Part shown: positions 8,499 to 29,629 of the stretch, one piece after another | Position numbering within the stretch: position 1 is the first letter of the stretch | Layout: each line of letters opens with the position of its first letter | Source of the DNA: a virus | Direction: 5' to 3' (one strand) | DNA length: 29,629 nucleotides | IMG/VR virus record: IMGVR_UViG_3300036944_000570 | Location: 1-29,629 of that record | The notes under the pieces: model-generated | What the model was told of the DNA's origin: nothing | The model's database searches: none | What the model saw: only the letters and a program-made list of their open reading frames with translations | Program-made: the position numbers and the translations under genes

Positions 8499-8703
8499 AG
8501 AGACAGGACAAACTACATACGTTATCCGGTACCTTATTGAACGCGAAAAAATAATACCTTACCGTAAAGGCCTTATGAAACTCGATAAAAATCAGGAGGC
8601 ATTAATTCATAAAATTTTATTCTTTGAGGGTAAATTAATTTATCTTACATTTGAATCAAAAATAAATGATCGAAATTTACGCCAAACATCAATACTGGAT
8701 TAA
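8473..8703 (+). CDS. Small MerR/excisionase-like HTH protein, 76 aa
   Basis: Residues 1-36 (MKKISQIAKETGQTTYVIRY ... REKIIPYRKG) follow the winged-helix layout of MerR/Xis-type proteins: an IAKETG first helix, a turn, a TTYVIRYLIE recognition helix and the IIPYRKG wing. The C-terminus is less distinctive. No integrase is present, so a transcription-factor role is more likely than excision. It lies just before and overlaps the sigma-factor gene by 38 bases, suggesting the two are regulated together. The assignment rests on the HTH pattern. Confidence 0.6.
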   Translation: MKKISQIAKETGQTTYVIRYLIEREKIIPYRKGLMKLDKNQEALIHKILFFEGKLIYLTFESKINDRNLRQTSILD

Positions 8704-9106
8704 ATTAGCCGTAAAATACGGCGTAACTGACTATCCGGAAGATATTGTACAGGAGGCGTACATTAAAATTCACGGCAAAGAAAATATAAATACATCTTAT
8801 TTTCACTCGGTAATACGATCTATTTGCTTAGATAAGCAAAAAAAACGTAAATTGCAAACGGTACAAATTATTGAAAACCTGGATCAGATTGATGAGGATT
8901 TTGAAAAGCCTGACATCAACCCGATTTTAGATTTTATAAATACCTGGCATTGGTTTGACAAAATGTTTTACTTACAATACATTGAAAATAAAACGAGTTT
9001 ACGTAAATTTGCCAAAAAATACGATTACGATTATCAATTTGTATATAGAACACTTTTAAAAATAAATAAAAAACTTTTAGATTATGGCATTAAAAATAAC
9101 AGATGA
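8666..9106 (+). CDS. ECF-like phage sigma factor, 146 aa
   Basis: Residues about 20-62 correspond to sigma region 2: YPEDIVQEAYIKIH is the ECF (D/E)D-(I/V)-QE-(A/T)-(F/Y) -10-binding/core helix, and SYFHSVIRSICLDKQKKRK is the WL..IARN..D..RK helix. Residues about 103-143 match region 4: FYLQYIENKTSLRKFAKKYD then a recognition helix YQFVYRTLLKINKKL. At 146 residues it is slightly shorter than cellular ECF factors, with a compressed linker. It is encoded immediately before the packaging and structural genes, the expected place for a late-gene activator. Candidate targets are the three GAAAC/CGTTTAC elements at 10780, 17845 and 20656. Confidence 0.75.
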   Translation: MIEIYAKHQYWIKLAVKYGVTDYPEDIVQEAYIKIHGKENINTSYFHSVIRSICLDKQKKRKLQTVQIIENLDQIDEDFEKPDINPILDFINTWHWFDKMFYLQYIENKTSLRKFAKKYDYDYQFVYRTLLKINKKLLDYGIKNNR

Positions 9107-9281: not shown

Positions 9282-9306
9282 TTCAATTATTTGATTTATA
9301 TTGAAA

Positions 9307-9600
9307 ATGGATAAACGTAAGCTAAACGGCGGTAATTCGACTAAAGCAGTTCGGCCCGATGACAAACGATTAATGTCAAAAACCGAACTCCAGGACGCAC
9401 ATTTACAACTTAGCCCGTATTGTCAAAAAGCTATTCAAGTTCACGCCCAGGCTATCGAATTGGGGGAACGTTGGGCCGTTGAATTATTTTATAAATATTA
9501 CTTCCGACTTCCAACGCAAACAATTGATCAAAAGGTTGAAGTTTCAAATTTCGATATTACAAAATTGTATGATCAAGAAACACCCGAAGCATTGGAATAA
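9307..9600 (+). CDS. Probable terminase small subunit, 97 aa
   Basis: Start at ATG 9307, six bases inside an in-frame TTG. A basic, flexible N-terminus (MDKRKLNGGNSTKAVRPDDKR) is followed by helices (LQLSPYCQKAIQVHAQAIEL; RWAVELFYKYYFRLP). The gene ends with a 32-base overlap into terL, and its C-terminus would contact the large subunit. It is shorter than most TerS proteins and lacks a clear N-terminal HTH, so assignment is mainly positional. TerS proteins select the packaging site and stimulate the TerL ATPase. Confidence 0.55.
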   Translation: MDKRKLNGGNSTKAVRPDDKRLMSKTELQDAHLQLSPYCQKAIQVHAQAIELGERWAVELFYKYYFRLPTQTIDQKVEVSNFDITKLYDQETPEALE

Positions 9601-10774
9601 ATTAATAAATCCGACTAGATATTTTATTATAACTGGCGGTCGTGGGAGTGGTAAATCGTTTGAGGTTGGGCGATTTGCTACTCTTTTATCGTTTGAAAAG
9701 GGCCATAAGATTTTATTCACTCGGCAAACAATGACCTCAGCGCACTTATCTATTATCCCGGAATTTCAGGAAAAAATAGAACTGCTAGAATTAAATCACG
9801 CTTTTGATATTCGAAAATCTGAAATCGTAAATCTACAAAGCGGAAGCGAAATTATTTTCAAAGGAATTAAAACCAGCTCCGGCGATCAAACTGCAAATCT
9901 TAAATCACTCCAGGGCGTTACAACCTGGATACTCGATGAGGCCGAAGAGTTAACAGACGAATCTATATTTGATAAAATTAACTTTTCAATCCGGCAAAAG
10001 GGTAAACAAAACCGCGTTATTTTAATTCTCAATCCTAGCACTAAAGAACATTGGATTTATAAAAAATTTTTCGAGCAAGTCGGAATACAGGAGGGATTTA
10101 ACGGCCAAAAGGATAACGTTACTTACATACACACCACGTACAAAGATAACATCGAAAATTTAGATCCGTCTTTTTTACACGAAGTCGAGCAAGTCAAAAT
10201 TAACAATCCAAAAAAATACGAACACGTAATTTTGGGCGGTTGGTTAGACAAAGCCGAGGGCGTAGTTTTTACAAATTGGAAGTTCGGCGAATTTAACCCG
10301 GATAATTTACAGACCTCTTTTGGTATGGACTTTGGGTTTTCTATTGATCCGGATACCTTAACCGAGGTCGCAATCGACAATACAAAAAAGAAACTTTACG
10401 TAAAACAAAAAATTTACCAAAACAAACTCAAAACTCACGAGCTTTGTCAATTAGTCAAATCAATTACAGGCGATAAATTGATCGTGGCTGATAGTTCCGA
10501 GAGTCGTTTGATTGAGGATATGAAAGCCTTTTCTATTAATGTCGTAGGCGTTAAAAAAGGAACGATTGAAAGCGGTATAGTACGAATGCAAGATTTTGAG
10601 ATTATAGTCGAGCAGAACAGCCACGATATAGCAAAGGAGCTTAATAATTACGTTTACTTAAATAGAGTCGGAAAATTATATATTGACGCTTATAATCACG
10701 CTATTGACGGAATTAGGTATAACGTAATACACCATTTAGATAATCCAAACTCCGGAAAATATTTTATCTACTAA
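9569..10774 (+). CDS. terL: Terminase large subunit, 401 aa
   Basis: Start placed at ATG 9569 (MIKKHPKHWNKL), since an upstream in-frame start lies deep within the preceding gene. The ATPase domain has Walker A GGRGSGKS (23-30), an adenine-binding-type RQTMTSAHLS (about 52-61), Walker B ILDEAEE (121-127) and a coupling motif around ILNPSTKEHW. The C-terminal RNase H-like nuclease shows its first Asp in GMDFGFSIDPD (about 253), a second in LIVADSSES and a third in YIDAYNHAIDGIRY. It is the packaging motor: it cuts concatemers and pumps DNA into proheads. Size and motif order are those of pbsx/T4-like Terminase_3/6 proteins. The first late CGTTTAC element begins six bases after its stop. Confidence 0.95.
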   Translation: MIKKHPKHWNKLINPTRYFIITGGRGSGKSFEVGRFATLLSFEKGHKILFTRQTMTSAHLSIIPEFQEKIELLELNHAFDIRKSEIVNLQSGSEIIFKGIKTSSGDQTANLKSLQGVTTWILDEAEELTDESIFDKINFSIRQKGKQNRVILILNPSTKEHWIYKKFFEQVGIQEGFNGQKDNVTYIHTTYKDNIENLDPSFLHEVEQVKINNPKKYEHVILGGWLDKAEGVVFTNWKFGEFNPDNLQTSFGMDFGFSIDPDTLTEVAIDNTKKKLYVKQKIYQNKLKTHELCQLVKSITGDKLIVADSSESRLIEDMKAFSINVVGVKKGTIESGIVRMQDFEIIVEQNSHDIAKELNNYVYLNRVGKLYIDAYNHAIDGIRYNVIHHLDNPNSGKYFIY

Positions 10775-10779
10775 AAAAC

Positions 10780-10807
10780 GAAACACTTTTTTTAAAAATT
10801 CGTTTAC
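10780..10807 (+). promoter_or_regulatory. Candidate phage-sigma late promoter 1 (tail module)
   Basis: GAAAC at 10780-10784, exactly 16 bases, then CGTTTAC at 10801-10807, and the ATG five bases later at 10813. This is ECF-type -35/-10 architecture and the same layout as 20656-20683. CGTTTAC is also mirrored by GTAAACG at 10818-10824, so an operator dyad is a second possibility. Confidence 0.6.
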
Positions 10808-10812
10808 TATTT

Positions 10813-11466
10813 ATGAAAGTAAACGTAACAATCCCGACTAAACTAAGCGAAATTACTTTATCGCAATATCAAAAGTATTTGGATATTTTAAAAGATAACC
10901 AGGATACTAATTTTATGCTGCAAAAAACAGTACAAATTTTTTGTAACGTGAAATTATCGGACGTCGCAAATATGCGTTATAAAGATGTTATCGATATTGT
11001 AGGCAAAATAGAAAACGCTTTTAAAGAGCAAACAAATTTAATCCCAACTTTTACGCACAACGGTACAAAATTCGGCTTTATTCCTAAGCTAGAGGATATG
11101 TCGTTTGACGAATACTCAAACCTCGATTCTTATTTAGCCGATTGGAATAATATACATCGGGCTATGGCTATTTTATACAGGCCTATTGTAAAGGAATTTA
11201 AAAACACGTACGAAATAGCGCCCTATTCCGGGACAACCGATTACGCAGAGGTTATGAAATCAATGCCGCTCGATGTGGTTTTGGGTGCGAATGTTTTTTT
11301 TTGGAATTTAAGCAACGACTTATTGACAGCTTCCCTGAGTTATTTGGAGAGGACTGTGGCGGATTTGATTCAAACGCCCAATTTGGTCGCCGGTGGGGTT
11401 GGTACGCCAGCCTTTATGCAATTGCGGGAGGAAGTCTCCTCAATTTTGAAGCAGCTGCAAAAATAA
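10813..11466 (+). CDS. Tail assembly chaperone, zero-frame product (G-like), 217 aa
   Basis: First gene of the tail module, starting five bases after a CGTTTAC element. The N-terminal part (KVNVTIPTKLSEITLSQYQK) and the central helical part (NIHRAMAILYRPIV) look like Bacteroidetes phage proteins at this position. At codons 161-163 (VFF, 11293-11301) the mRNA has a T_TTT_TTT slippery heptamer, and a -1 reading frame opens exactly there and continues to 11543. This is the G/GT arrangement of siphoviral tail chaperones, which coat the tape measure during tube assembly. Unlike classical G, the zero frame continues about 54 codons past the slip site. Here the gene is not next to the tape-measure gene. 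Confidence 0.65.
   Translation: MKVNVTIPTKLSEITLSQYQKYLDILKDNQDTNFMLQKTVQIFCNVKLSDVANMRYKDVIDIVGKIENAFKEQTNLIPTFTHNGTKFGFIPKLEDMSFDEYSNLDSYLADWNNIHRAMAILYRPIVKEFKNTYEIAPYSGTTDYAEVMKSMPLDVVLGANVFFWNLSNDLLTASLSYLERTVADLIQTPNLVAGGVGTPAFMQLREEVSSILKQLQK
11295..11301 (+). promoter_or_regulatory. -1 ribosomal frameshift site T_TTT_TTT
   Basis: In the zero frame the codons are GTT TTT TTT TGG (11293-11304), so T11295, TTT 11296-11298 and TTT 11299-11301 form a canonical X_XXY_YYZ heptamer within a run of nine T. After a -1 slip the next codon is TTG at 11301, the first codon of the downstream open frame. No strong stimulatory pseudoknot was evident by eye. Confidence 0.65.
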
Positions 11467-11543
11467 ATATTTACGAATGCCTCACGTTTCTAACTTTTGA
11501 AAAGGAGAAAAACGAAATGGAAATTAAAATGTTAAAAAAATGA
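11301..11543 (+). CDS. -1 frame extension of the tail chaperone (T part of a GT fusion)
   Basis: An 80-residue frame with no ATG or independent start signal near its beginning, so it is best read as the C-terminal part of a 243-residue fusion (163 zero-frame codons plus 80). Its sequence (FPELFGEDCGG ... WGWYASLYAIAGGSLLNFEA ... NIYECLTFLTFEKEKNEME) resembles the C-terminal domain of tail chaperones as I remember them in Bacteroidetes phages, with a Lys/Glu-rich final helix. The fusion would bridge the tape measure and tube subunits at a low stoichiometric ratio. Its TGA overlaps the next ATG (11540-11543). Confidence 0.65.
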   Translation: MEFKQRLIDSFPELFGEDCGGFDSNAQFGRRWGWYASLYAIAGGSLLNFEAAAKINIYECLTFLTFEKEKNEMEIKMLKK

Positions 11544-11965
11544 TAGGATATTACCAAATTTTAGACACGATCAAAGCGAAATTATTAGAAGACAAATTTT
11601 GTAAAACGACTTCTAGCGGATCGATTTTTAATGTAGCGTTAAACAAACAGGATATTTACCCGATATCGCACATTATAGTAAATTCATTTGCCGAAGAGGG
11701 CGAGGCTTTTAACTATAATATTAGCGTGCTTTGTATGGATTTGGTAAACGATGACGATAGCAACGAAGAGGACGTTATACATACACAATCAATGGTAGCG
11801 ATTCGATTAGTTGAGTCGTTAAGACGTGGTAATTTGTTTAGGGATTTATACCAATTAAACGGGGCCACTACATACGAATTTTTCACAGATCGTTTCGAGG
11901 ATAAAGTCGCCGGGTGTACCGCTACTTTTAATGTTTTGGTAAGTAATGAAATGTCAATCCGATGA
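11540..11965 (+). CDS. Probable tail terminator/completion protein, 141 aa
   Basis: A small alpha/beta protein beginning MIGYYQILDTIKAKLLED. It contains LNKQDIYPISHIIVNS, ISVLCMDLVND, EDVIHTQSMVAIRLVESLRRG and a final beta strand (CTATFNVLVS). The order fits the gpU-like tail-terminator fold: an N-terminal helix, a sheet, a helix, and a strand-rich end. It is coupled by ATGA to the chaperone frame upstream and to the gp10-like gene downstream, a usual place for tail-end proteins. The assignment is by pattern and neighbourhood; a neck connector is the alternative. Confidence 0.55.
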   Translation: MIGYYQILDTIKAKLLEDKFCKTTSSGSIFNVALNKQDIYPISHIIVNSFAEEGEAFNYNISVLCMDLVNDDDSNEEDVIHTQSMVAIRLVESLRRGNLFRDLYQLNGATTYEFFTDRFEDKVAGCTATFNVLVSNEMSIR

Positions 11966-12510
11966 CCGAAGTAGAAAACACAATTTTAAAATTTCGTAAT
12001 TACGTTATACAGCAATCTAGGTCAAATTTAACCAAGGGTAAAAAAAACGTAACGCGTAAACTATACGATAGTATAAAAGGCGAAATAGTAACCGAAAACG
12101 GTTTTACTATTGTAGGTTTTAAAATGGACGAATACGGAAGCTATCAGGATTTGGGTGTAAAGGGAGCCGATCCGTCACAAGTTTCAAAGAACTCAAAAAT
12201 TAGAGGTCAGCAAGCGCCGAATAGTCCGTATAAATTCAAGCGTCGAATCCCGTCCGCGCCTTTTGAAAAGTGGGCAAGGTTTCGAGGTGTGAGATTCAGA
12301 AACGCCAAAGGCGAATTTGCAAAAGGAGGGTTTAAATCGATAGGTTATATTATCGCTAAAAATGTTTGGGCTAGGGGGATAAAACCGAGTCTATTTTTTA
12401 CAAAACCTTTTGAGGCCGGTTATAAAAAATATATCGATATTGACTTAGTAAAATCATTTGGCCAAGATGTCGAGACCATAGTAGATTATAATTTAATACC
12501 TAAAAAATGA
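11962..12510 (+). CDS. HK97 gp10-like neck/tail-completion protein, 182 aa
   Basis: The N-terminal helix VENTILKFRNYVIQQSRSNL is followed by KKNVTRKLYDSIKGEIV and YGSYQDLGVKGADPS, the typical gp10 pattern in which a basic K-LYDSI helix precedes Y---DLGVKG. A basic loop-rich middle (YKFKRRIPSAPFEKWARFRG) and an RGIKPSLFFTKPFEAGY segment match longer versions seen in Bacteroidetes phages. Such proteins join the tail to the head. It overlaps its neighbours by four bases on each side. Confidence 0.65.
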   Translation: MTEVENTILKFRNYVIQQSRSNLTKGKKNVTRKLYDSIKGEIVTENGFTIVGFKMDEYGSYQDLGVKGADPSQVSKNSKIRGQQAPNSPYKFKRRIPSAPFEKWARFRGVRFRNAKGEFAKGGFKSIGYIIAKNVWARGIKPSLFFTKPFEAGYKKYIDIDLVKSFGQDVETIVDYNLIPKK

Positions 12511-12668
12511 ACGTAGTAAAAATATACAAAGGCCAAGATCAAACGCCGACTTTTATAATAGAAAGCGAAACTGTAATTGATTCAACTCAATATGTAAATT
12601 TATGGAGTTGCAAAGAAGAGATTTATATTGATGAGGAATTAATTGACACAATATACCATACAAAATGA
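12507..12668 (+). CDS. Small tail-module protein, 53 aa
   Basis: Starts MNVVKIYKGQDQTPTFIIES at an ATG overlapping the previous stop and ends overlapping the next start. It is beta-rich with an acidic second half (CKEEIYIDEELIDTIY). No family recognised, but both junctions are coupled and it fills the gap between two structural genes. Confidence 0.6.
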   Translation: MNVVKIYKGQDQTPTFIIESETVIDSTQYVNLWSCKEEIYIDEELIDTIYHTK

Positions 12669-13753
12669 AAGTAGTAAAAGTAAGAAGCCCTTTTTTAGTT
12701 GAAATCGGCAGTCAAGGAAGTACGCACGTAGGAAGTAAGATAGTTTTGACTATTTGGAATAGTGGAGAATCTGAGCCAACAAGCGGTTTAGGATATTATT
12801 CCCTATCTAAAAGCAATCCAAGTCTAACGCAAAAAACTACAACTTACAACGTCTCAAATTATGTAAAGGAGTTTATAGATAATGTAAAACCAAATAATTA
12901 TAATTTAACTACGGTTGCAGCCGAAGACGTTGACGAATGGTGTATTTTTCACGTTGTATCTTATTGGTTTAATGGAACATCATACACAGCTTTAACCGAT
13001 AATTATTATTATGGCGTAAATGGGTTTACAAATTATTCAGACGGTTACCAAAACCCTAACTCAAGTAAATTAGTTTTATTAGCGAATCCAAATATTAATA
13101 ATTACTATTATAAAAGTTCGTTTTCTGACTTAAAAATGGAGTATTTAAATTTACTATTTGACAAATTGAGTACAGATAGTTTTACATTAAAATACGAGAG
13201 GATTGACGGTACAGTTTATTCTACAACTCAAAATCTATTAAGCGGAGTTGCTGGAACTGACAACTTAAAAATACCTATTACACCGGTTATATTTGATAGT
13301 AATTTCGTGAATGGTTGCAAGGTTACAATAACTTTAGATACAACGGTTTTTATATTTTACAGCTATCCTATTGAGGAATATAAATATACACCTGTTCGAT
13401 GTTCGTTTATAAATCGTTATGGTGGTTGGAAGGATATAATCTTTTTTAAGCAACAGACAAATAGCATATCTGTAAAAAATACAAATTATAAAACAAATTT
13501 AGCATTAATAGGCCAATCAAAAATTATTAACGTAAACGGCACACAAACTGTAAAATTAAATACCGGTTGGGTAAATGAGAATTTTGCCGAATTAGTTACC
13601 GATTTGCTTTTATCTGAACGCGTACTTTTAGACGAAAAACCAGTAACTGTAAAGAGTCAAAGTTTTGATCTAAAAAGTGTTTTAAAAGATAAAATGATAA
13701 ATTACGAGGTTGAATTTGAATTAGATTATAATTTAATAAACGACGTTATATGA
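12665..13753 (+). CDS. Tail structural protein, 362 aa
   Basis: A beta-rich, Asn/Tyr/Thr/Ser-rich protein with the amino-acid profile of a virion surface component. It begins with an SPFLVEIG strand and SKIVLTIWNSGE, has a long aromatic-rich middle, and ends with FDLKSVLKDKMINYEVEFEL. It has no transmembrane segment and no enzymatic motif. It lies between tail-completion genes and a larger tail protein with which it shares an ATGA overlap, so the two probably form part of the distal tail. Repeated YY and NN runs and local A/T richness suggest fast evolution. Confidence 0.6.
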   Translation: MKVVKVRSPFLVEIGSQGSTHVGSKIVLTIWNSGESEPTSGLGYYSLSKSNPSLTQKTTTYNVSNYVKEFIDNVKPNNYNLTTVAAEDVDEWCIFHVVSYWFNGTSYTALTDNYYYGVNGFTNYSDGYQNPNSSKLVLLANPNINNYYYKSSFSDLKMEYLNLLFDKLSTDSFTLKYERIDGTVYSTTQNLLSGVAGTDNLKIPITPVIFDSNFVNGCKVTITLDTTVFIFYSYPIEEYKYTPVRCSFINRYGGWKDIIFFKQQTNSISVKNTNYKTNLALIGQSKIINVNGTQTVKLNTGWVNENFAELVTDLLLSERVLLDEKPVTVKSQSFDLKSVLKDKMINYEVEFELDYNLINDVI

Positions 13754-15807
13754 TAATAGTAGGCCTATTTATTAAAACCGATAACGAGTTTTTGAGAGTT
13801 GATTTTTTTAACGATGAGAAAATTTCTCTCAATTCGTCAATTCAAAATATTGCGGACATATCAAAAGTAACTACGGATTTTTCGCAGTCGTTTACGGTGC
13901 CAGCTACAAAGCAAAATAATAGAATTTTCAAACATTGGTATGAGAGCAGTATCGATAGCGGATTTAATTCTAATTTAAAAGTTGAGGCTTACATCGAATT
14001 AGATACTATACCATTTCGTAATGGTAAAATACAGCTTGAGGGCGCAACGGTTAAAAATGGAAGCCCTGAGAATTACAGCATTAATTTTGTCGGTAATTTA
14101 ACAAATTTAAAAGATAAGTTCGCGGGTAAATTGTTAAAAGATTTGACCGATAATACTCATAATATTGAATATGACGCCACAATAGTAAAAGACAAAATAG
14201 TAAATACAACCACTAGCGCAGACGTTATGTTCCCTTTGATTAGTTCGGATAGGTATTGGACTTATAATGCAGGAGATGAAAACATAAACGATACAACAAA
14301 AGCAATAAGATTTAACGAGTTGTTTCCAGCTTTGCGAGTTAGTGTGGTTTTAAATATGATTGAGTCTCAATTTGGGGTTAATTTTGACGGATCTTTTTTG
14401 AGTAATAATAAGTTTTTGAATGCTTATTTGTATATGAAAAACGCAGAAACTTTTAAAGCAAAACCACAATTAACGAAATTACTTTTTGAGCGAGAAAGTT
14501 GGATTGGTAGTGCGACAAATGAAAGCGGATTTACTATGAATTTGTCAACTGATAAATTAACACTTTTTGAGATACCAGCGACAATAGTTATAGGCGCAAC
14601 TACTTATAATTTTCAATATAGACAGGCTTCATTTTCTATAACCACAACAAACGCGGGTGTACCTTTTACAATTTCTTATTTTAAAAATGGTGTAAAATTT
14701 CAACAAGATGATAAATTATCAACTGCCGGGGGTGTTTTTAGTGGGAATAATATACCGCTTTCAACTTATGGTAGATTTGCCTCAACAGATTATTTTGAAT
14801 GCTATATTGAATCTTCAATGCCTTTAACATATACTACTAATTTTGAGGGGCTCGCTCGTTATCAATCAAGTGGTGGGCTTACACAAATTAGATATTATTT
14901 TGCAAACTCAGCTATTGGAACAACACAAACTACACCGACATATTATTTGCCTATAAATGCATACTTCCCCGAAATTAAAATCGAGGATTTTTTTAGCGGA
15001 CTTTTAAAAATGTTCAATTTGACTTGCTTTTCTACTGACGGGGTAAACTATACACTAGAAAGGATTGACGATTATTATAATAACGGATCATTTATAGACA
15101 TTACAAAGTATATAGATATTGAATCAAATACAAGTGTTAACCGTGTAAAGACCTTTAAAAAGATAAATTTTGAATACGAAAAGAGCGAATCGATAATAAA
15201 TGTAGGCTTTTTAGGTAGCACAGGGTTAGAATATGGTAGTTTATCGGCCGATACTGGATACGAGGGCGAGGAATATTCAATTAAATTACCCTTTGAGGAT
15301 TTAAATTTCAACAATATAGGGGGCGGATTATTACAGGTTGGCTACGTTTTGAAGTCAGATTTAGCGAAATACGTACCGAAAGCGGTTATTTTATACGATT
15401 ATAACCCCTCAGGATTAACAACGTGCCCGCAATTTTACTTTAATACAAATTTAACGGGAGGGACTTCGACAGCTCATACAACTTATAAAGCATTTGGCCA
15501 GGAGACTTTAATAAGTAGCGAAACATTTTCGTTAAATTTTGGTACTCAGCAATCGACACTAACTAATTTAATTATAGAAAACGGATTATATGCTCAAAAT
15601 TACGATCAATATTTAGCGAATATTTTTAACATTAAATCTAGGTTGATAAAAATAAAAACCTATTTACCGACTTCGATATTGACAACGATAAAATTAAATG
15701 ATCGGTTAATAATCCGGGATAAAAGATATATTATAAATTCGATGAATTTAGACTTAACTACCGGCGAGGTACAATTTGAATTATTAAACGATTTTAGAAC
15801 GATATGA
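13750..15807 (+). CDS. Distal tail/baseplate-type structural protein, 685 aa
   Basis: The start region carries FLRVDFFNDEKISLNSSIQNI and then DISKVTTDFSQSFTVPATKQ (residues about 37-56), a segment I associate with tail proteins of Bacteroidetes phages. Glycine/threonine-rich beta segments follow, then KIEDFFSGLLKMFNLTCF. The C-terminus ends as a barrel-like module (IKLNDRLIIRDKRYIINSMNLDL then GEVQFELLNDF), similar to hub or distal-tail proteins where a compact barrel contacts the tube. Placed right before the tape measure with one 48-residue gene between, it is a likely Dit/Tal equivalent. There is no peptidase or lysozyme motif. Confidence 0.6.
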   Translation: MIIVGLFIKTDNEFLRVDFFNDEKISLNSSIQNIADISKVTTDFSQSFTVPATKQNNRIFKHWYESSIDSGFNSNLKVEAYIELDTIPFRNGKIQLEGATVKNGSPENYSINFVGNLTNLKDKFAGKLLKDLTDNTHNIEYDATIVKDKIVNTTTSADVMFPLISSDRYWTYNAGDENINDTTKAIRFNELFPALRVSVVLNMIESQFGVNFDGSFLSNNKFLNAYLYMKNAETFKAKPQLTKLLFERESWIGSATNESGFTMNLSTDKLTLFEIPATIVIGATTYNFQYRQASFSITTTNAGVPFTISYFKNGVKFQQDDKLSTAGGVFSGNNIPLSTYGRFASTDYFECYIESSMPLTYTTNFEGLARYQSSGGLTQIRYYFANSAIGTTQTTPTYYLPINAYFPEIKIEDFFSGLLKMFNLTCFSTDGVNYTLERIDDYYNNGSFIDITKYIDIESNTSVNRVKTFKKINFEYEKSESIINVGFLGSTGLEYGSLSADTGYEGEEYSIKLPFEDLNFNNIGGGLLQVGYVLKSDLAKYVPKAVILYDYNPSGLTTCPQFYFNTNLTGGTSTAHTTYKAFGQETLISSETFSLNFGTQQSTLTNLIIENGLYAQNYDQYLANIFNIKSRLIKIKTYLPTSILTTIKLNDRLIIRDKRYIINSMNLDLTTGEVQFELLNDFRTI

Positions 15808-15950
15808 TAAAAAACATTTTAGACCTTTTAGCGCTCGATGAGTTCTACGGTCAAAGCGAAAATATAGAAATTGCCAAAGGCAAATTTGAATTAATTGATA
15901 GCTGGAAAAAAGCATTTAAACAACTAAAAAGACAATGGAAAATAAGGTAG
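15804..15950 (+). CDS. Small protein before the tape measure, 48 aa
   Basis: MIKNILDLLALDEFYGQSEN, then a lysine-rich amphipathic helix (DSWKKAFKQLKRQWKIR). It is coupled to the upstream gene by ATGA and overlaps the tape-measure start by 16 bases. Position suggests a tail-assembly helper. No family recognised. Confidence 0.6.
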   Translation: MIKNILDLLALDEFYGQSENIEIAKGKFELIDSWKKAFKQLKRQWKIR

Positions 15951-17842
15951 TAAATTTAGAGGTTAAGGATAATTTAGGAAGTTTAAAATCTCAGCTTAGA
16001 GAGGCACAGGCGGAAGTAGCGGCGCTATCGGATAAGTTCGGAGCGACTTCGAGAGAGGCGGTAAACGCTGCTAAAAAAGCGGGAGAGTTAAAAGATAGGA
16101 TAGGAGACGCGAAAGCCTTAACGGACGCGTTTAATCCTGACGCAAAATTCAAAGCGTTAACAGCTTCGTTGAGTGGTGTCGCGGGTGGTTTCTCAGCAGT
16201 TCAAGGCGGAATGGCTTTGCTAGGTGTTGAAAGCGAAAACGCCGAGGCAGCGCTTTTGAAAGTTCAATCCGCAATGGCACTATCGCAAGGCGCTCAGGCG
16301 GTAGGCGAAAGCGTGGATAGTTTTAAGCAATTAGGGGCCGTAATAAAATCGACAACTATATTCCAACAAATATCTACACAAGCGCAAAGACTTTGGAACT
16401 TAGCAATGTCAGCTAATCCTATTGGCGCAGTTGTTTTAGCTATTACTGCTTTAATAGCGGCGGGGGCGGCTTTAGTAAGTTGGTATAAATCGTCAAGCGA
16501 TGAGGCTAAAAAAAATTCGCAAGCTGTTAAATCTAATTCTCAAGCCTTAGAAAGTCAAAAGAAAACAGCCGACAAAACTGCGGACTCTATTAAAAAGAAT
16601 AGCGATTATCAGTTAGAAATGGCCAAAGCCTCCGGAGCTAGTGCGGAATCAATTAGAAAATTAGAATTAAAACTAGTTGATGAAAAAATAGCCTATGCAA
16701 ACTCAAGTAGAGAGGTTGCAAAAAATACGTATTATAAAAATTTAAATGCTATAGCAAGTTTAAAAGCAGCAGGTGCTGATGAGGAAGTTATTAAAGCACA
16801 AGCTGAAATTACAAAAAAATCATTAGAGGAATTTGGTAAACAAACTAAAAATTTAAATGACGCTAATTCTGAAAAGGTACAAATAATTCGTAAGCATAAT
16901 GTAGAAAAAAAACAAGCTGAAACAAATCATAATAAAGAGGTTGCAGATGAAAGCAAAAAAGCTGCAACTGAAGCTAAACAAAAGGCTTCCGATGAGGCTA
17001 AACAAAAAGCTGAGCAAGCCGAAAAAGAACGTCAGGAATTAATAACAAAACAAGGAGAGAGAGCTAGGGAAGAATACGAAGCTGCTGAAAAATTAATTAA
17101 AGATACAAAAAAAGCAAATGAAGACGCTTTAAAAACTGAAAATCAATTAAAAGTTGAGAAAGAAAATGCGGAATTTGAAGCTAAAAAAGCAAATTTACTA
17201 AGCAAAGGATTATCTATTGAAGAAATAGAAAAGGAACACAAAAGAAAATTAGCTCAATTAGATGATGAATATTTTGCCTCCGAAGCCGACAAAGCAATAA
17301 AATCAACGGCAGACGCAAAAGCAGCTTCAGAAGCTAAAATAAAATTAATTGAGTTAGAGAAAAAAGCAAGGTTAGACGCTGCGGACGCGATAGCTAATAC
17401 TTTATCTTCTATGTCTGAATTGTTAGGTAAAGAAACAGCAGCAGGAAAAGCGGCTGCGGTTGCAAGTGCAACTATTAATACTTTTAGCTCAGCTCAAAAG
17501 GCTTATGATTCTACGGTAGGTATTCCTTTTGTGGGGCCTTTTTTAGCTCCAATTAATGCAGGTTTAGCAATTGCTGGAGGTATTAAAAATGTTAAGTCTA
17601 TTTTATCGGTTAAAGTTCCTGGAGGCGGTGGCGGAGGTAGCGCTCCAACTTCAAACGGAGGCACCGGATCAGCTTCGCAACCTCCGGCGTTTAACGTAGT
17701 AGGTGCAAGTTCAACAAATCAATTAGCGCAAACAATCGCGGGACAACAACAGCAACCGATTAAGGCTTATGTAGTTGCAAACGATGTAACAACTCAGCAA
17801 AGTTTAGACAGAAATATAGTTCAATCAGCAACAATAGGATAA
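15935..17842 (+). CDS. Tape measure protein, 635 aa
   Basis: The N-terminal region is a coiled coil (KSQLREAQAEVAALSDKFG). It is followed by GGFSAVQGGMALLGVESENAEAALLKVQSA, a recurrent element of Bacteroidetes tape measures, and a hydrophobic membrane-capable segment (GAVVLAITALIAAGAALVSW, about 168-187). About 200 residues of Lys/Glu/Ala coiled coil occupy the middle (roughly 200-460). Near the end a glycine run (about 565-572) precedes PAFNVVGAS and QPIKAYVVANDVTTQQSLDR, a conserved tail in this group. The tape measure sets tail length and ejects first. At about 1.5 angstroms per residue the helical part predicts a tail near 90-95 nm, a siphovirus. It ends 35 bases before the head module. 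Confidence 0.85.
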   Translation: MENKVVNLEVKDNLGSLKSQLREAQAEVAALSDKFGATSREAVNAAKKAGELKDRIGDAKALTDAFNPDAKFKALTASLSGVAGGFSAVQGGMALLGVESENAEAALLKVQSAMALSQGAQAVGESVDSFKQLGAVIKSTTIFQQISTQAQRLWNLAMSANPIGAVVLAITALIAAGAALVSWYKSSSDEAKKNSQAVKSNSQALESQKKTADKTADSIKKNSDYQLEMAKASGASAESIRKLELKLVDEKIAYANSSREVAKNTYYKNLNAIASLKAAGADEEVIKAQAEITKKSLEEFGKQTKNLNDANSEKVQIIRKHNVEKKQAETNHNKEVADESKKAATEAKQKASDEAKQKAEQAEKERQELITKQGERAREEYEAAEKLIKDTKKANEDALKTENQLKVEKENAEFEAKKANLLSKGLSIEEIEKEHKRKLAQLDDEYFASEADKAIKSTADAKAASEAKIKLIELEKKARLDAADAIANTLSSMSELLGKETAAGKAAAVASATINTFSSAQKAYDSTVGIPFVGPFLAPINAGLAIAGGIKNVKSILSVKVPGGGGGGSAPTSNGGTGSASQPPAFNVVGASSTNQLAQTIAGQQQQPIKAYVVANDVTTQQSLDRNIVQSATIG

Positions 17843-17844
17843 AA

Positions 17845-17872
17845 CAAAACAAAACACAAATTAATCGTTTAC
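17845..17872 (+). promoter_or_regulatory. Candidate phage-sigma late promoter 2 (head module)
   Basis: CGTTTAC at 17866-17872, with the ATG five bases later at 17878, as at the other two sites. The upstream half is less good: at the GAAAC position (17845-17849) it reads CAAAA, with AAAAC one base closer. GTAAA follows the ATG, a partial mirror of the box. Confidence 0.5.
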
Positions 17873-17877
17873 TTTAT

Positions 17878-18435
17878 ATGGTAAAATCTTTTGAATTAAT
17901 ATTAGACGAAGACGACGACGGCGTTTATGCGATTAGTTTAGTCGACCGGCCAGCTATCCAAGAAAATTGGATCGCGCTTTCGGAATCTAATAAAATTGAA
18001 TTTAAAGAAATTGATTTTAAAGAAAATATACTTATTGGAGCGGTGTTAATTCCTGACTTAGAAATAGACCGGTTAGATGAAAATAAAGAGATTTACAAAG
18101 TTCATTTTTCGGGAGAAACGATTAAAAAGATAGCGCATAAATTTATGATACAAGGCTATCAATCGGAATCCACATTACAGCATAAAACAAAAGTTAAAGG
18201 AGTTACCGTAGTTGAGACCTGGTTAAAAGAGGATATGATCCACGATAAATCTGTAAAGTACGGTTTTGATTATCCTTTAAATACGTGGTTAGTAAAAATT
18301 TCAGTCGATAACGAAGAGATAAAAGAAAAGGTAAAATCGGGCGAAATAAAAGGCTTTTCAATAGAGGGGTTTTTTAACCAAAAATCCGAAGATCAAAAAC
18401 TATTTGATCAATTAAAAGAATTATTAACAAATTAA
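17878..18435 (+). CDS. XkdF-like prohead protease candidate, 185 aa
   Basis: The N-terminus reads FELILDEDDDGVYAISLVDRPAIQENWIAL, the signature opening of XkdF-like phage proteins, in which a substrate-like strand is followed by LVDxPAI. Then come ILIGAVLIPDLEIDR, HFSGETIKKIAHKFM, and a His-containing segment (STLQHKTKVKGVTVVETW), and WLVKISVDNEEIKEKVKSGEIKGFSIEGFF near the end. The KGFSIEG motif and paired His/Ser residues resemble the S78/U35-type prohead-protease fold, though I cannot fix the catalytic set. It would mature the capsid and scaffold. It is first in the head module, directly after a late promoter element and followed by a scaffold-like gene and the capsid gene. Confidence 0.7.
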   Translation: MVKSFELILDEDDDGVYAISLVDRPAIQENWIALSESNKIEFKEIDFKENILIGAVLIPDLEIDRLDENKEIYKVHFSGETIKKIAHKFMIQGYQSESTLQHKTKVKGVTVVETWLKEDMIHDKSVKYGFDYPLNTWLVKISVDNEEIKEKVKSGEIKGFSIEGFFNQKSEDQKLFDQLKELLTN

Positions 18436-18442
18436 TTATAAA

Positions 18443-18973
18443 ATGGAGTACAAACAAACATTAAACAAAGTGCGAGCTTTACTTTCTTTGGAAGTAAAAT
18501 TAGCTCAAATGACTTTAATAGACGGAGTTACAATTTTAGAAGCGGAAGCGTTTGAGCCTGACTATTCAGTTGGAATCGTAACCGAAGACGGAATTATACC
18601 GGCGCCTATCGGAGTTCACGAAACAACTGACGGAATGATTATTACCGTTGAAGTTGAGGGAATTATTAAATCCGTTGAAATGAAAAAAGAAGAGCCAGCT
18701 GAAGAGGTTGAAATCGAAGCTAGTGAATCGCCTAAAAAGGTAGTTGAAACTATCTCTAAAGAAACTTTTTTCGAAGAGGTAAAAGTTGAGATTGAAAAAT
18801 TAGAATCTGAAAACACAGCTTTAAAAGTTGAGTTAGCGGAAGTTAAAAAACAATTAGAGTTAGCAAGCGTTAAGCCTATCGCTTTTAACCCGGAAGTAAA
18901 ACAAACAAAATCGGTTTCAGAAATGACGCCACTAGAAAAACACAGACTTTTTAAACAAACACAAATAAACTAA
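18443..18973 (+). CDS. Scaffold/capsid-assembly protein candidate, 176 aa
   Basis: An acidic protein in two parts. Residues 1-85 are beta-rich (VEGIIKSVEMKK). Residues about 85-150 are a Glu/Lys coiled coil (KVEIEKLESENTALKVELAE VKK...). A basic C-terminal peptide follows (MTPLEKHRLFKQTQIN), as in many scaffolds that bind capsid subunits. It lies between the XkdF-like gene (seven-base gap) and the major capsid gene (six-base gap), the standard scaffold position. Substrate of the protease by analogy only. Confidence 0.65.
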   Translation: MEYKQTLNKVRALLSLEVKLAQMTLIDGVTILEAEAFEPDYSVGIVTEDGIIPAPIGVHETTDGMIITVEVEGIIKSVEMKKEEPAEEVEIEASESPKKVVETISKETFFEEVKVEIEKLESENTALKVELAEVKKQLELASVKPIAFNPEVKQTKSVSEMTPLEKHRLFKQTQIN

Positions 18974-18979
18974 TAAATT

Positions 18980-19999
18980 ATGGCAATTTCGTATACATCA
19001 GTAGACATTAGAGGTAAGGCAGTTGAGCCAATCCTAGAGGAAGTTTTCTTCGCAAACAAAACAATTAACGACGGTTATGTAACTTTTAACAGCGACATCA
19101 AAGCTGGAACAATCTTTACCGAAGAGGGAGTAGATGTAACCGCACAACTTTACACAGGTGCTGCGCTTTCAAATAGTGGATCTATGACAATCACAGATCG
19201 TACTATCACTCCAACCAAATTAGAGTACAAACAAACATTTTTACAGGAATCTTTAAGAGCGGGTAGATTTGGACGTTCAATGAATCCAGGTGCTTTTAAC
19301 ATTGAGTCTAGCGAGTTCGCTTCAACTGTTTTAGCGCAATACGCTCCGGCAGTTTCTGAGGATTCAGAAAAAATCTTTTGGGGTGGTATTACAGCAGCTA
19401 CAAAAACAGCTATCGCAGCTTTAACTCCAGGCGCTGCTCAAGGATCTATAACTGCCGCTACTCAAACAGCAGTAGCTGGATTGACTGCCGGATTAGTTGA
19501 CGGGGTATTTGCAAAAGTTCTTTATGATAACGCTGCTTTGGGAGGTTATATTAAAGTAACAGGAACAACTGTAACAGCTGCTAACATCGCCGCTGAGTGT
19601 GCTAAAATTTTCGCTGCAATACCAGCCGAAAACTTAAACGATACAGTTAGCCCAACGGTTATCTACGCTCCTAGAGGTTGGAAACAACTTTGCTACAACG
19701 CTAATAATACAGTTGGCGCTGCTCAACAAGTTAACTTCCAAATTTCTGGTAACGACTTCAACAGCTCAAAAGTATTTTACAACGGAATCGAATTGTTATT
19801 TGTACCGGCTCCAACAAATAACTTAGCTTACACACAAAGAAAAGCGGCAGTTTCTTGGAATACTGACTTAGTAGATGACGTAAACAGATTTGAAGTAGGT
19901 AAATTGGTAAATGACGGGGACACTCAATTTGTGAGAACTATCTATACTTTGGCTGCAAACGTTGGTCAAGCTACAAAAGGAGTACTTTACGGAGGTTAA
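18980..19999 (+). CDS. Major capsid protein, 339 aa
   Basis: The protein is Ala/Thr-rich with HK97-like character: an N-terminal arm (MAISYTSVDIRGKAVEPILEE), a strand-rich E-loop-like part (KAGTIFTEEGVDVTAQLYTG), a spine-helix-type segment (FASTVLAQYAPAVSEDSEK) and a C-terminal domain ending RFEVGKLVNDGDTQFVRTIY. Codon use is visibly more optimised (more GCT, AAC, ATC) than in its neighbours, as expected for the most highly expressed phage gene. It directly follows the protease and scaffold genes and is closed by a strong terminator at 20011-20036. The region about 145-175 is an Ala/Thr repeat (ITAATKTAIAALTPG; ITAATQTAVAGLTAG), probably an internal duplication. Confidence 0.82.
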   Translation: MAISYTSVDIRGKAVEPILEEVFFANKTINDGYVTFNSDIKAGTIFTEEGVDVTAQLYTGAALSNSGSMTITDRTITPTKLEYKQTFLQESLRAGRFGRSMNPGAFNIESSEFASTVLAQYAPAVSEDSEKIFWGGITAATKTAIAALTPGAAQGSITAATQTAVAGLTAGLVDGVFAKVLYDNAALGGYIKVTGTTVTAANIAAECAKIFAAIPAENLNDTVSPTVIYAPRGWKQLCYNANNTVGAAQQVNFQISGNDFNSSKVFYNGIELLFVPAPTNNLAYTQRKAAVSWNTDLVDDVNRFEVGKLVNDGDTQFVRTIYTLAANVGQATKGVLYGG

Positions 20000-20010
20000 T
20001 TAATAACAAT

Positions 20011-20036
20011 AACCCCCTTTAATTAGGGGGTTTTTT
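20011..20036 (+). terminator. Intrinsic terminator after the capsid gene
   Basis: AACCCCCT (20011-20018) pairs with AGGGGGTT (20025-20032) around a six-base loop, followed by six T (20031-20036). Placed 12 bases after the capsid stop. No promoter is obvious between it and the tail-tube gene (20050), so partial readthrough may set the capsid-to-tube ratio. Confidence 0.9.
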
Positions 20037-20049
20037 AAAACATATAGAT

Positions 20050-20598
20050 ATGCCAGCAGAAGCTTTTACATTAGGGCGCCTAGAGCCTACAAAATCTAGC
20101 AACGGTGGTTTAAGAAACGTTTATTTTATCACTAGCGGGCTTATTGCTCCGAGTGCTTTTACATACGGAACTACAACCAACACGGACGCTATCGCAAGCG
20201 TTACGTCAGCGGCTTCGGTTACTGCCGTAAAATATGAACTTTTGGGAGCGAATAGCTTTGATCAAACTATGACTAGTTCACGTGAAAACGGAACTACATT
20301 TTTTGAGCAAAAATTAGCGTTAAAATTGAAAAAATTAAACGCGGCTACTCATAAGGAATTGAAACTTATTGCTTACTCAAGATGTCAAATAGTAGTTGAG
20401 GATAATAACGGAAATTTAATGTTAGCCGGACTGACTAACGGAATGGACGTTACAGGAGGTACAATCGTATCGGGTACAGCTTTAGGCGATCACTCAGGAT
20501 ATACTTTGGAATTAATGGGAATGGAGCCAGTAGGTGCAAACTTTATTACAGGTGCAATTACAACAGTTATCGGCGGTACAATAACAGCAGGTTCATAG
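20050..20598 (+). CDS. Major tail (tube) protein, 182 aa
   Basis: A compact beta-rich protein with YFITSGLIAPSAF, YELLGANSFDQTMTSSRENG (about residues 60-79), FFEQKLALKLKKLNAATHKE, then a QIVVEDNNGNLMLAGLTNGM strand pair and GYTLELMGMEP. The ENGTTFFEQKL and VVEDNNGN segments recur in the tube proteins of Bacteroidetes siphoviruses as I know them. High-expression codon use like that of the capsid gene supports a major virion component. It stands between terminators on both sides (20011 and 20627). Being inside the head block is unusual but not prohibitive. Confidence 0.7.
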   Translation: MPAEAFTLGRLEPTKSSNGGLRNVYFITSGLIAPSAFTYGTTTNTDAIASVTSAASVTAVKYELLGANSFDQTMTSSRENGTTFFEQKLALKLKKLNAATHKELKLIAYSRCQIVVEDNNGNLMLAGLTNGMDVTGGTIVSGTALGDHSGYTLELMGMEPVGANFITGAITTVIGGTITAGS

Positions 20599-20626
20599 TT
20601 TGATTTTTGATTTTTTGATTGAAAGG

Positions 20627-20655
20627 CGCCTAATTAATTTTAGGCGTTTTTTTTT
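20627..20655 (+). terminator. Intrinsic terminator after the tail-tube gene
   Basis: CGCCTAA (20627-20633) and TTAGGCG (20640-20646) with a six-base loop and nine T at 20647-20655. The T run abuts the GAAAC box of the next late promoter. The 28 bases ahead of the stem (20599-20626) are TTTGA-rich filler with no gene. Confidence 0.9.
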
Positions 20656-20683
20656 GAAACAAAAAGAAATAAAATTCGTTTAC
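20656..20683 (+). promoter_or_regulatory. Candidate phage-sigma late promoter 3 (portal module)
   Basis: GAAAC at 20656-20660, 16 bases, CGTTTAC at 20677-20683, five bases, ATG at 20689. It sits right after a strong terminator, which argues for a genuine restart of transcription. This is the best of the three sites. Confidence 0.65.
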
Positions 20684-20688
20684 TTTTT

Positions 20689-21000
20689 ATGATTATACTA
20701 TTAGAAACAAATCAAAGTCAACAAATATCTTTTATCCCGCGTGAGATGACCGCTTATTTGTTGAAAATTAAAAACGAAACTACGGAAGTAGTGCAAACGA
20801 TAACGCCTACGTTTTATAAAAACGATTATTATTATACGTGTTCGGCAGTTTTTAACCTAAAAGAAAATCATTTTTATAATTTAGAAGTGCAAGATATGAA
20901 CGAAAAGGTAATTTACTTAGATAAAATCTTTTGTAAAAGTCAAAATCCTAGTTCGTATCCAACTGCAAACCCTACAAATACAATAATTTATGAGCAATAA
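20689..21000 (+). CDS. Small beta-rich structural-module protein, 103 aa
   Basis: MIILLETNQSQQISFIPREM followed by alternating strands (YLLKIKNETTEVV, YYYTCSAVFNLKE, HFYNLEVQDMNEKVIYLDKI). The pattern is an immunoglobulin-like or small beta-sandwich domain, often used on virion surfaces. It starts five bases after a late CGTTTAC element and overlaps the portal start by 11 bases. Role unknown; a decoration or head-associated protein is possible. Confidence 0.6.
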   Translation: MIILLETNQSQQISFIPREMTAYLLKIKNETTEVVQTITPTFYKNDYYYTCSAVFNLKENHFYNLEVQDMNEKVIYLDKIFCKSQNPSSYPTANPTNTIIYEQ

Positions 21001-22831
21001 TAACCACGTTATAGAATTAAAAGCATATAACCCGCCAAAAGCGGTTGAAAGTCGCCAAGATAATTGGATAAAATTCGGCGAAAAAAACGACTATTATGAT
21101 TTTTTAATAGAGCGTTACAATAATTCTACAACAAATAACCAGGTTATAAATAATATTGTAAAATTAATTTACGGTAAAGGTTTAATTTCTAAAGATTCAG
21201 CGCAAAAACCTCAGGAATATGCACAATTAAAAACGCTTTTTACTAAAGAAAACGTAAAAAAAGCGATTACCGATATGTATTTATTGGGCCAATGTGCTTT
21301 TCAAATTATATATTCTAAAAATAAAAAGCAAATAGTTGAAGTTCAGCATATACCGGTTAATCTTTTAAGGCCCGAAAAATGCAATGCCGAGGGTATTATT
21401 GAAAATTATTACTATTCAGATAATTGGAAAAATTTAAGAGAATATCCTGCAAAACCTATCCCGGCTTTTGGTTATGGCGATCGTACTTTAGAGATTTTTA
21501 TGATCGGAAATTATACAATAGGGCAAAAGTATCTAAGTAGCGTTTCATATATTGGCGGACTTCCATACGCAAAGCTAGAAGAGGATATATCCGAGTATTT
21601 AATTTCATTAGTTGAGACAGGATTCACGCCGCTTAAGATACTGAATTTCAACAATGGAATCCCGGATTCGGACACTCAAAGACGAGTTAACGAAAGCGTT
21701 ATTGATCAAACCACAGGAGCAAGCGGCAAAAAATTAATAGTTTCTTTTAACTCAGACGAAACTAAAAAGACTACTATTGACAGCGTTAGTTTAGATAATG
21801 CCAGCGCTCAATATGAATATTTAAGCAACGAGGCACGCGCTAAAATTATGCTATCTCACGGGGTTACTTCCGGGCTTTTATTTGGTATTCCAACGGCAAA
21901 CGGTTTTAGCTCAAACGCGGACGAATTAAAAACGGCTTTTATGCTTTTTAATAACAACGTAATTATTCCAAATCAAGAGCAATTTTGTGACGGTATAGAT
22001 AAGATTTTAGCTTATAACGGTATAGCTTTGGATTTAGGTTTTGAGACGTTAAACACGCTAGAGGATACGATTGAAATAAGCGAATCCGATATATCTAATA
22101 AAACAATCTCAGCGGTTAACGCTATGAGTCCTTTGGTTGCTAATAAAGTTCTAGACTCGATGACTCCGGACGAAATTAGAAATCTAATAGGATTACCGCC
22201 AACGCTAGGAGGCTCGACACTTGACACGAAATTAAAATCAATTGAAGTTGAGGCGACGGATTTTAGCAGCGATTTAGATTTAAACGAATGGGAGCTTTGC
22301 GATAGTTCGGTAGTGGATTATGATAAAGAGGACGAATACGACGAAATAATTAAAAAAGCAAATAACCCTAGTTTATTTAAACGTATTCAGCATTTTGCTA
22401 GCACAGGAACAGCATACCCTAGACGTAATTCGGAACAGGATACAAAATTATTTAAGACGCGTTATAGATACAGCGGTAATGCAATAGGCGAGCGTGAATT
22501 TTGTAAAAAAATGTTACAGGCAAATAAGCTGTATAGAAAAGAGGATATTTTAGCAATGTCAAAGGTAACTGTTAACCCTGGTTTTGGAATGAGTCCGGAT
22601 CCTAACGAGCCTTATTCTATATGGTTATGGAAGGGCGGGGGCAAACTTTCGGAGGCTTATCCAAATGGAACGTGTAAGCACTTTTGGGTACGTGAAACAT
22701 ACCGCAGAAAAGGAACAGACATTTTAAGTCCTTTGGCTCAAAAAATAACGCCAGCGCAAGCTAGAAAAGAGGGCGAAATATTACCTACTAACGATCCGCG
22801 AGTTTACAAAGCTCCGCACGATATGAAATAA
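20990..22831 (+). CDS. Portal protein with an extra C-terminal domain, 613 aa
   Basis: Residues 1-400 resemble a portal subunit: WIKFGEKNDYYDFLIERYNNS and INNIVKLIYGKGL in the N-terminal part, a YLLGQCAFQIIYSKNK wing, a long stem helix region, and HGVTSGLLFGIPTANGFSSNADELKTAF, the usual post-stem signature with the GxSSN-like turn. EIRNLIGLPPTLGG (about 400-413) ends the portal clip as in many portals. Residues about 465-600 form an added domain (KTRYRYSGNAIGEREFCKKM, KLYRKEDILAMSK, VNPGFGMSP, YSIWLWKGGG, CKHFWVRETYRRKG) with a Cys/His-Trp motif and many aromatic and basic residues. Fused processing or head-binding domains of this kind recur in Bacteroidetes phages. The portal forms the dodecameric DNA entry ring. 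Confidence 0.82.
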   Translation: MSNNNHVIELKAYNPPKAVESRQDNWIKFGEKNDYYDFLIERYNNSTTNNQVINNIVKLIYGKGLISKDSAQKPQEYAQLKTLFTKENVKKAITDMYLLGQCAFQIIYSKNKKQIVEVQHIPVNLLRPEKCNAEGIIENYYYSDNWKNLREYPAKPIPAFGYGDRTLEIFMIGNYTIGQKYLSSVSYIGGLPYAKLEEDISEYLISLVETGFTPLKILNFNNGIPDSDTQRRVNESVIDQTTGASGKKLIVSFNSDETKKTTIDSVSLDNASAQYEYLSNEARAKIMLSHGVTSGLLFGIPTANGFSSNADELKTAFMLFNNNVIIPNQEQFCDGIDKILAYNGIALDLGFETLNTLEDTIEISESDISNKTISAVNAMSPLVANKVLDSMTPDEIRNLIGLPPTLGGSTLDTKLKSIEVEATDFSSDLDLNEWELCDSSVVDYDKEDEYDEIIKKANNPSLFKRIQHFASTGTAYPRRNSEQDTKLFKTRYRYSGNAIGEREFCKKMLQANKLYRKEDILAMSKVTVNPGFGMSPDPNEPYSIWLWKGGGKLSEAYPNGTCKHFWVRETYRRKGTDILSPLAQKITPAQARKEGEILPTNDPRVYKAPHDMK

Positions 22832-29624: not shown

Positions 29625-29629
29625 AATTC
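29521..29629. repeat. Terminal direct repeat, right copy (109 bp)
   Basis: Identical to 24-132 over 109 bases, ending exactly at the window edge. Joining the right end to base 133 restores the 3' end of the 81-residue gene in frame, which supports a circular map. Confidence 0.9.

Follow-up and report, generated by a model that had tools for sequence, protein, structure and literature searches.

The extracytoplasmic function (ECF) sigma factor SigW of Bacillus subtilis reads promoters of the form TGAAAC-N16-CGTA, and some phages encode late sigma factors of their own, such as gp55 of T4 and gp28 and gp33/34 of SPO1, which switch the host polymerase to late genes. T4 gp55 reads only a -10 element (TATAAATA) and depends on two further proteins, gp33 and the gp45 clamp. 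Here, we analyze three candidate late promoters and a short ECF-like sigma factor gene of IMG/VR virus record IMGVR_UViG_3300036944_000570, whose 29,629-nt sequence is called the window below and has the gene content of a siphophage (terminase, XkdF-type protease, and portal). On comparison with its relatives, it is very likely that an ECF-type sigma factor of the phage directs a late regulon whose transcripts are leaderless or nearly so (0–3 nt). In Actinobacteria and Deinococcus, leaderless genes have a TANNNT -10 element, and no -35 motif was found for those of Mycobacterium tuberculosis (PMC3160421, PMC3898074).

The window protein resembles SigW-type ECF sigma factors in consisting of regions 2 and 4 only, in the AAC-type -35, the spacer of 15–17 nt, and the CGT-type -10 of its candidate promoters, and in its profile match to SigW. 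It differs in being phage encoded and shorter (146 aa), with a promoter fixed at the start codon. Like gp55 and the SPO1 factors, it would be a phage-encoded sigma-family protein that redirects the host polymerase to late genes. Unlike the sites of gp55, those in the window keep a conserved -35-like AAC and abut the ATG, and a -10 element alone does not describe them. The leaderless genes of Actinobacteria and Deinococcus share the -10 at about -12, the pyrimidine at -1, and the purine start, whereas the window has a bipartite promoter of the ECF type that is restricted to the late regulon of a phage, and in the phylum of its hosts, the Bacteroidota, most transcripts are leadered (PMC6847099). 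Another close comparison is the pair of isolated Nonlabens phages P12024S and P12024L (Inhavirus), in which a sigma gene also precedes the terminase and six sites lie at -12; their sigma is very divergent, their -10 is CGTTAATA or CGTTACTA, and the gene after the terminase has none. No promoter analysis of P12024S/L was found in the literature search, and neither leaderless nor ECF-type late promoters of Bacteroidota phages were found in a search that lay outside most subscription journals and all preprints. The parts are of a known kind, and the fixed fusion of a late promoter to the start codon in Bacteroidota phages is, as far as found, new.

Candidate late promoter sites in the window

CGTTTAC is located at 10801–10807, 17866–17872, and 20677–20683 of the plus strand, each time followed by five A/T bases and an ATG (10813, 17878, and 20689), so that its C is at -12 of the start codon. 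GAAAC lies exactly 16 nt upstream at the first and third sites (10780–10784 and 20656–20660). The second site has CAAAA with a spacer of 16 and AAAAC with a spacer of 15, and the AAC of the latter (17848–17850) serves as the -35-like element. The positions of CGTTTAC, GAAAC, and the ATGs agree exactly with those given in an earlier reading made without database searches (the sequence-only reading). The arrangement CGTTTAC-N5-ATG is present three times, versus 0.05–0.07 expected from simulated sequences of the same composition, and GAAAC-N16-CGTTTAC-N5-ATG twice, versus 0 in 300 simulated sequences. CGTTTAC alone is over-represented in the window (14 versus 5.1 expected); the word itself is thus weak evidence, and the weight rests on its position and on the upstream element. 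The -7 element of the host primary sigma factor (sigma-ABfr), TAnnTTTG (PMC6847099), is absent from all three sites.

As had been reported, one element directly follows a terminator: the hairpin at 20621–20655 (plus strand; -17.2 kcal/mol, z -5.6) ends in a T run that abuts the GAAAC of the third site. In five genomes, the window and four relatives, a terminator adjoins the pre-portal -35 element, with no space in between for a second promoter, and any longer leader at this site would depend on read-through. The assignment of the three sites to tail, head, and portal modules was worded loosely. The first site precedes the gene after the large terminase subunit (10813–11466, plus strand, 217 aa), which opens late unit 1; it is of unknown function and similar to phrog_32199 (E 1.1e-17). 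The second precedes an XkdF-type prohead protease gene (17878–18435, plus strand; PF14550, E 3.1e-15) that opens the head unit. The third precedes a small gene (20689–21000, plus strand, 103 aa) that opens the portal unit and overlaps the portal gene (20990–22831, plus strand; phrog_33693, E 1e-91), which lies downstream in late unit 3. Sites placed like this pre-portal one are also present in five loci of relatives, which are designated by L-numbers (L281, L245, L228, L278, and L259). The predicted +1 positions of the three units are 10813, 17878, and 20689.

Conservation of the element in relatives

A search with the profile of the sigma family yielded homologous sigma genes on at least 482 viral contigs, of which 80 were kept. 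Every ATG gene with a 20-nt gap in these contigs and in the sigma loci obtained before them was then included in a positional scan (553 distinct upstream regions), in which no motif was named beforehand. The most enriched positional 4-mer was CGTT at -12 from the ATG (46 versus 2.1 expected). The motif recurs before the gene after the terminase, the protease gene, and the small pre-portal gene. CGTT is at -12 in 15/16 protease orthologues and in 54/69 genes after the terminase, and most of the others have GGTT or TGTT at this position. In a set of 34 non-redundant sites, where -12 to -9 were fixed by site selection, AAC is found 15, 16, or 17 nt before CGTT in 10, 12, and 5 cases, respectively (27/34; about 0.6 expected per position), and positions -8 and -7 are A/T only. 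A bipartite promoter with an AAC-type -35, a spacer of about 16, and a CGT-type -10 is the ECF layout, and the family-wide rule is AAC-N15..17-[C/T/G/A]GTTW at -12. When IMG/VR was scanned for the exact pattern GAAAC-N14..18-CGTTTAC-N5-ATG, 119 stretches were obtained, nearly all by chance; exact-word sites at real gene starts were confined to the window phage and its near kin, so the exact words proposed earlier are lineage-specific, and what the relatives keep is the motif. A separate candidate, CGTTTA at offset 11, was rejected as a promoter because it was mostly coding sequence at the ends of sigma genes.

No match was obtained by tblastn with three family sigmas against 50,697 isolated-phage records. 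The P12024 phages were reached via terminase similarity, the large terminase of the window being 67% identical to theirs. A gene noted as Sigma-70 region 2 directly precedes the terminase of P12024S/L. The sigma of P12024S, a phage isolated on Persicivirga sp. IMCC12024, is only about 19–27% identical, and its genome (NC_018271, L130) has six AAC-N16/17-CGTT sites at -12 of an ATG (179, 3031, 5412, 23961, 25201, and 26802), in the same geometry as in the window. At 4/6 of these promoters (around 5412, 23961, 3031, and 26802), the complementary strand has a TAnnTTTG that overlaps the late -35 or lies immediately upstream of it, and those at 5412 and 3031 point toward a small gene annotated as divergent. 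From this arrangement, binding of the late sigma in P12024S could shut off an early divergent transcript.

Linkage of the element to the sigma gene

Linkage was analyzed with the genes after the terminase grouped at 92% identity (81 clusters); single-linkage clustering at 80% was abandoned because it joined clades that have the motif with clades that lack it and so obscured the comparison. The element is present in 40/41 clusters with the short sigma gene within 7 kb (38 exactly at -12, one at -13, and one at -15) and in 8/9 clusters in which a longer sigma form lies within the same distance. It is present in 0/8 clusters without a nearby sigma, where the gene either lies over 8 kb away or is missing from a stretch of at least 5 kb. 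Relatives that keep the short sigma near the terminase therefore keep the motif, which was the point on which the sequence-only reading had asked to be judged. P12024 is the sole exception with a short sigma, although six of its other genes carry the element, and among the eight positives of the longer form, L292 has no recognisable AAC and may be due to chance. The hypergeometric tail of these counts is about 1e-7 or less, for clusters that are not independent.

The longer form is a paralogous sigma of about 176–200 aa. It is located 8–9.5 kb upstream in L210, L223, L226, L229, L237, and L251, and is adjacent in L267, L271, L278, L280, and L284. Where it adjoins the terminase region, AGTT, GGTT, TGTT, or CGTT is found at -12, and where it is distant, there is no element. 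Another conserved upstream sequence, TTTAATACAAT...TTTATTTTATTATTATAAAAAA, is followed by an A-rich stretch before the ATG in genomes in which the sigma gene lies far away or did not appear in the DNA retrieved. It lies 45 nt before the gene after the terminase in L217, L219, L223, L226, L227, L230, L237, L250, L256, L258, and their kin, and is probably another promoter type with a leader.

The octamer from -12 to -5 varies between phages (CGTTTACT, CGTTTATA, CGTTATAT, TGTTATTA, GGTTATAA, and AGTTTAAT). In 20 genomes, the octamer of the gene after the terminase agrees with those of unrelated late genes of its own genome at 7.33 of 8 positions, versus 5.81 ± 0.27 after shuffling, and none of 20,000 permutations was as high (P < 5e-5). 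Such within-genome agreement is what a trans-acting reader produces.

The sigma protein and its residue 56

The 146-codon open reading frame at 8666–9106 (plus strand) was taken as a sigma gene in the earlier reading, and this identity is now backed by TIGR02937, the SigW profile match, and Foldseek. The protein has region 2 (PEDIVQEAYIKIH...SYFHSVIRSICLD) and the helix-turn-helix of region 4 (SLRKFAKKYDYDYQFVYRTLLKI), and it lacks regions 1.1 and 3. TIGR02937 (sigma70-ECF) matches it with E 9e-6 and also matches 34/34 family members tested, in each case below its curated cut-off. When the family profile was compared with solved structures in the Protein Data Bank, SigW ranked first (E 0.0018), with an alignment spanning both regions. 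The AlphaFold2 model is all-helical (pLDDT 74, pTM 0.39), with residues 63–80 between the two regions poorly predicted, and the top Foldseek matches are the ECF sigmas SigL, SigH, and SigE (probability 0.92–0.99, E 0.01–0.05). "ECF-like" is the right wording for this protein because the homology falls below curated cut-offs. No adjacent (membrane) anti-sigma gene was noticed beside the sigma gene, in the course of an analysis that included no systematic search for one. A MerR-like small protein is encoded next to it (8473–8703).

A host-type -7 element, TACATTTG (TAnnTTTG), is found at 8646–8653 (plus strand), 12 nt before the sigma ATG, and is a possible but weak candidate for a host promoter of this gene. 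In L005 (1–160), the host -7 element TATATTTG lies 4 nt ahead of the sigma ATG, and this sigma gene might also be transcribed without a leader, by the host sigma. A general host promoter ahead of the sigma gene was not found, as such an element precedes only 2/35 family sigma genes.

Column 56 of the sigma alignment is the best separator of amino (C/A) from keto (T/G) bases at -12, with the next column far behind. Asp56 is found in 40/43 amino types and in 0/6 keto types. On the sigma tree, the -12 base moved between amino and keto four independent times, all with loss of Asp, and in both of the two origins of T at -12, residues 56 and 59 are Asn. When aligned to SigW, residue 56 falls in region 2.4 or at its border, and SigW has an Asp at or next to this position. 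As it depends on four events, too few for significance on the tree, and on a column found by looking, the relation is a lead.

Predicted start of transcription

In other bacteria, a -10 box some 12 bp ahead of the start is the mark of leaderless genes (PMC3160421), and a pyrimidine at -1 and a purine at +1 are preferred at start sites (PMC3898074). With the C of CGTT at -12, the A of the ATG would be +1. The base at -1 is T in 65/77 motif genes (84%) versus 242/700 other genes of the same phages (35%; p 2e-17). All 54 CGTT sites of the gene after the terminase have ATG as the start codon, even with GTG and TTG permitted as starts. Control genes from these phages have an A-rich upstream context instead. 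No Kozak-type difference was found at -3 between motif and control genes (62% versus 55% A). The element is at -13, -14, or -15 in L215, L140, and L276. Transcripts of Flavobacterium johnsoniae mostly have leaders over 10 nt, and its translation uses sequence-specific upstream bases at -3 and -6 (PMC6847099). Given the leaders of most F. johnsoniae transcripts, and with the +1 predicted from sequence, the leaderless start is an inference, which we regard as likely. The nearly leaderless start suggested earlier has thus gained support from the constant -12, the T at -1, and the terminators abutting the -35, with the +1 itself still a prediction.

Proposed mechanism and alternative explanations

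Here, we propose a mechanism based on the promoter elements, their spacing and conservation, the link to the sigma gene, the agreement between sites within a genome, and the covariation with residue 56, all of which are seen in the sequence. The host polymerase would read the early genes and probably also the sigma gene. Once made, the minimal ECF-type sigma of 146 aa (regions 2 and 4) would steer the host RNA polymerase to AAC-N15..17-NGTTW promoters and open the late units; in the window, these take the form (G/A)AAAC-N15/16-CGTTTAC before 10813, 17878, and 20689. At least some late units would be closed by a terminator and restarted from their own late promoter. Since the -10 element is exactly 12 nt before the ATG and T is at -1, transcription is expected to start at the A of the ATG (in a few relatives, up to about 3 nt from it), and the late mRNAs would be leaderless and begin with AUG. 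The pairing of sigma and promoter is strongly supported by the comparison of relatives; polymerase binding, the timing, the +1 position, and leaderless translation are the predicted parts. The sequence-only reading was right in substance as a whole and required rewording for the lineage-specific -10 words, the ECF-like protein, and the predicted +1.

Several observations weigh against this mechanism. The window sigma scores 25.4 bits against TIGR02937, below the curated cut-off of 42.9, and has no match in Pfam. The pTM of its model is modest, no Foldseek match is below E 0.001, and its sigma activity is deduced from homology. Likewise, the RNA start is deduced from sequence, and its distance from the element is not absolute, as L140 and L215 have the element 1–3 nt farther from the ATG. 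The linkage clusters are not phylogenetically independent, and the genomes with sigma distant or absent look like one or a few clades. P12024S/L lack the element at the terminase-adjacent gene, and the prophage relatives in Flagellimonas (L292) and Galbibacter (L294) have very divergent sigmas and no convincing element. The clearest discordance within genomes is found in L252 and L266, which have TGTTTATA at the gene after the terminase and GGTTTA at the protease gene (13849 and 19355, respectively). As for residue 56, three C-type sigmas lack Asp56, and the signal consists of four changes only, in a column chosen after the fact (sign test p 0.125).

The most serious alternative, though an unlikely one, accepts the sites as late promoters of the phage sigma and places the start a few nucleotides upstream of or inside the ATG, giving a very short leader or another start codon. 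The distance from the -10 to +1 in bacteria does vary by a nucleotide or two, and the elements at -13, -14, and -15 would give leaders of 1–3 nt. However, variable leaders would not keep the -12 distance as tight as in 38/41 short-sigma clusters, and T-1/A+1 is strongly favoured. In place of the phage sigma, an alternative sigma of the host or another DNA-binding regulator of the phage may recognise the sites, and the many ECF sigmas of host Bacteroidota and the MerR-like protein beside the sigma gene give this idea some ground. We consider it very unlikely, as the presence of the element follows the adjacent phage sigma, its -10 variant is common to a genome and tracks residue 56, and the layout is that of ECF promoters.

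An element at a fixed distance from start codons is also typical of translation signals, and F. johnsoniae does use bases at -3 and -6 (PMC6847099), so that the element could be imagined to act in translation or RNA stability, as part of the 5' leader of a longer transcript, and not as a promoter. This is highly improbable for an element that is bipartite with a helical spacing of 15–17, directly follows a terminator in five genomes, and has variants that covary with the sigma gene, whereas control genes show the A-rich context. Finally, chance recurrence of an A/T-rich word or plain common descent of upstream sequence would fit the over-representation of CGTTTAC in the window, the close kinship of many loci, and the exact-pattern matches in IMG/VR that are mostly outside gene starts. 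The positional scan, the linkage to the sigma gene, and the AAC spacing already refute this reading, whose probability we regard as close to negligible: three sites are seen versus 0.05 expected, and the same geometry recurs at genes that are not orthologous and, between other flanking sequences, in distant phages.

Other features of the window

A probable small subunit of the terminase (9301–9600, plus strand; phrog_38011) is assigned by its position between sigma and the large subunit. The latter is annotated at 9479–10774 (plus strand; PF04466, E 1.4e-35), with its real start probably near 9570–9600. Another intrinsic terminator (20014–20036, plus strand) lies 3' of the putative major capsid gene. 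Positions 1–132 and 29498–29629 have 132 nt in common at 97% identity, inside genes of an MTPKEKA... family of which there are more partial copies at 239–372; the shared ends represent either a terminal repeat that is imperfect or paralogues in tandem through which the contig was cut. A pentapeptide-repeat protein is encoded at 7536–8129, and the HHLNLHH open reading frame on the opposite strand (7600–7911) is a by-product of the repeat. The terminase match in GenBank OQ791282 (Shigella phage Henu10) has coordinates and identity equal to those of Riemerella phage vB_RanS_PT15, and Shigella may have been entered as its host by mistake.

Implications for Bacteroidota phages

Late transcription of Bacteroidota phages has been little described, and our literature searches on the topic found nothing relevant. 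The proposed model is concrete and falsifiable, as it names the protein, the DNA, and the +1 base, and because P12024S and P12024L are isolated, it is testable now. AAC-N15..17-NGTTW at -12 provides an annotation rule by which late operons and the correct start codons can be marked in many phages from metagenomes, and the relation between residue 56 and the -12 base offers a natural set of sigma–promoter pairs for specificity studies. A broader proposal, which we put forward tentatively and rate somewhat below an even chance, is that the late regulon of these widespread, largely uncultured phages is leaderless by design, with the promoter fused to the start codon, that residue 56 reads the -12 base (Asp for C/A; Asn, Gln, or Arg for T/G), and that their co-divergence leads to mutually insulated regulons. 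Leaderless messages may free late translation from the leader requirements of the host. If true, this would be a viral regulon with promoters locked to start codons, in hosts that do not use Shine–Dalgarno sequences and whose mRNAs are mostly leadered.

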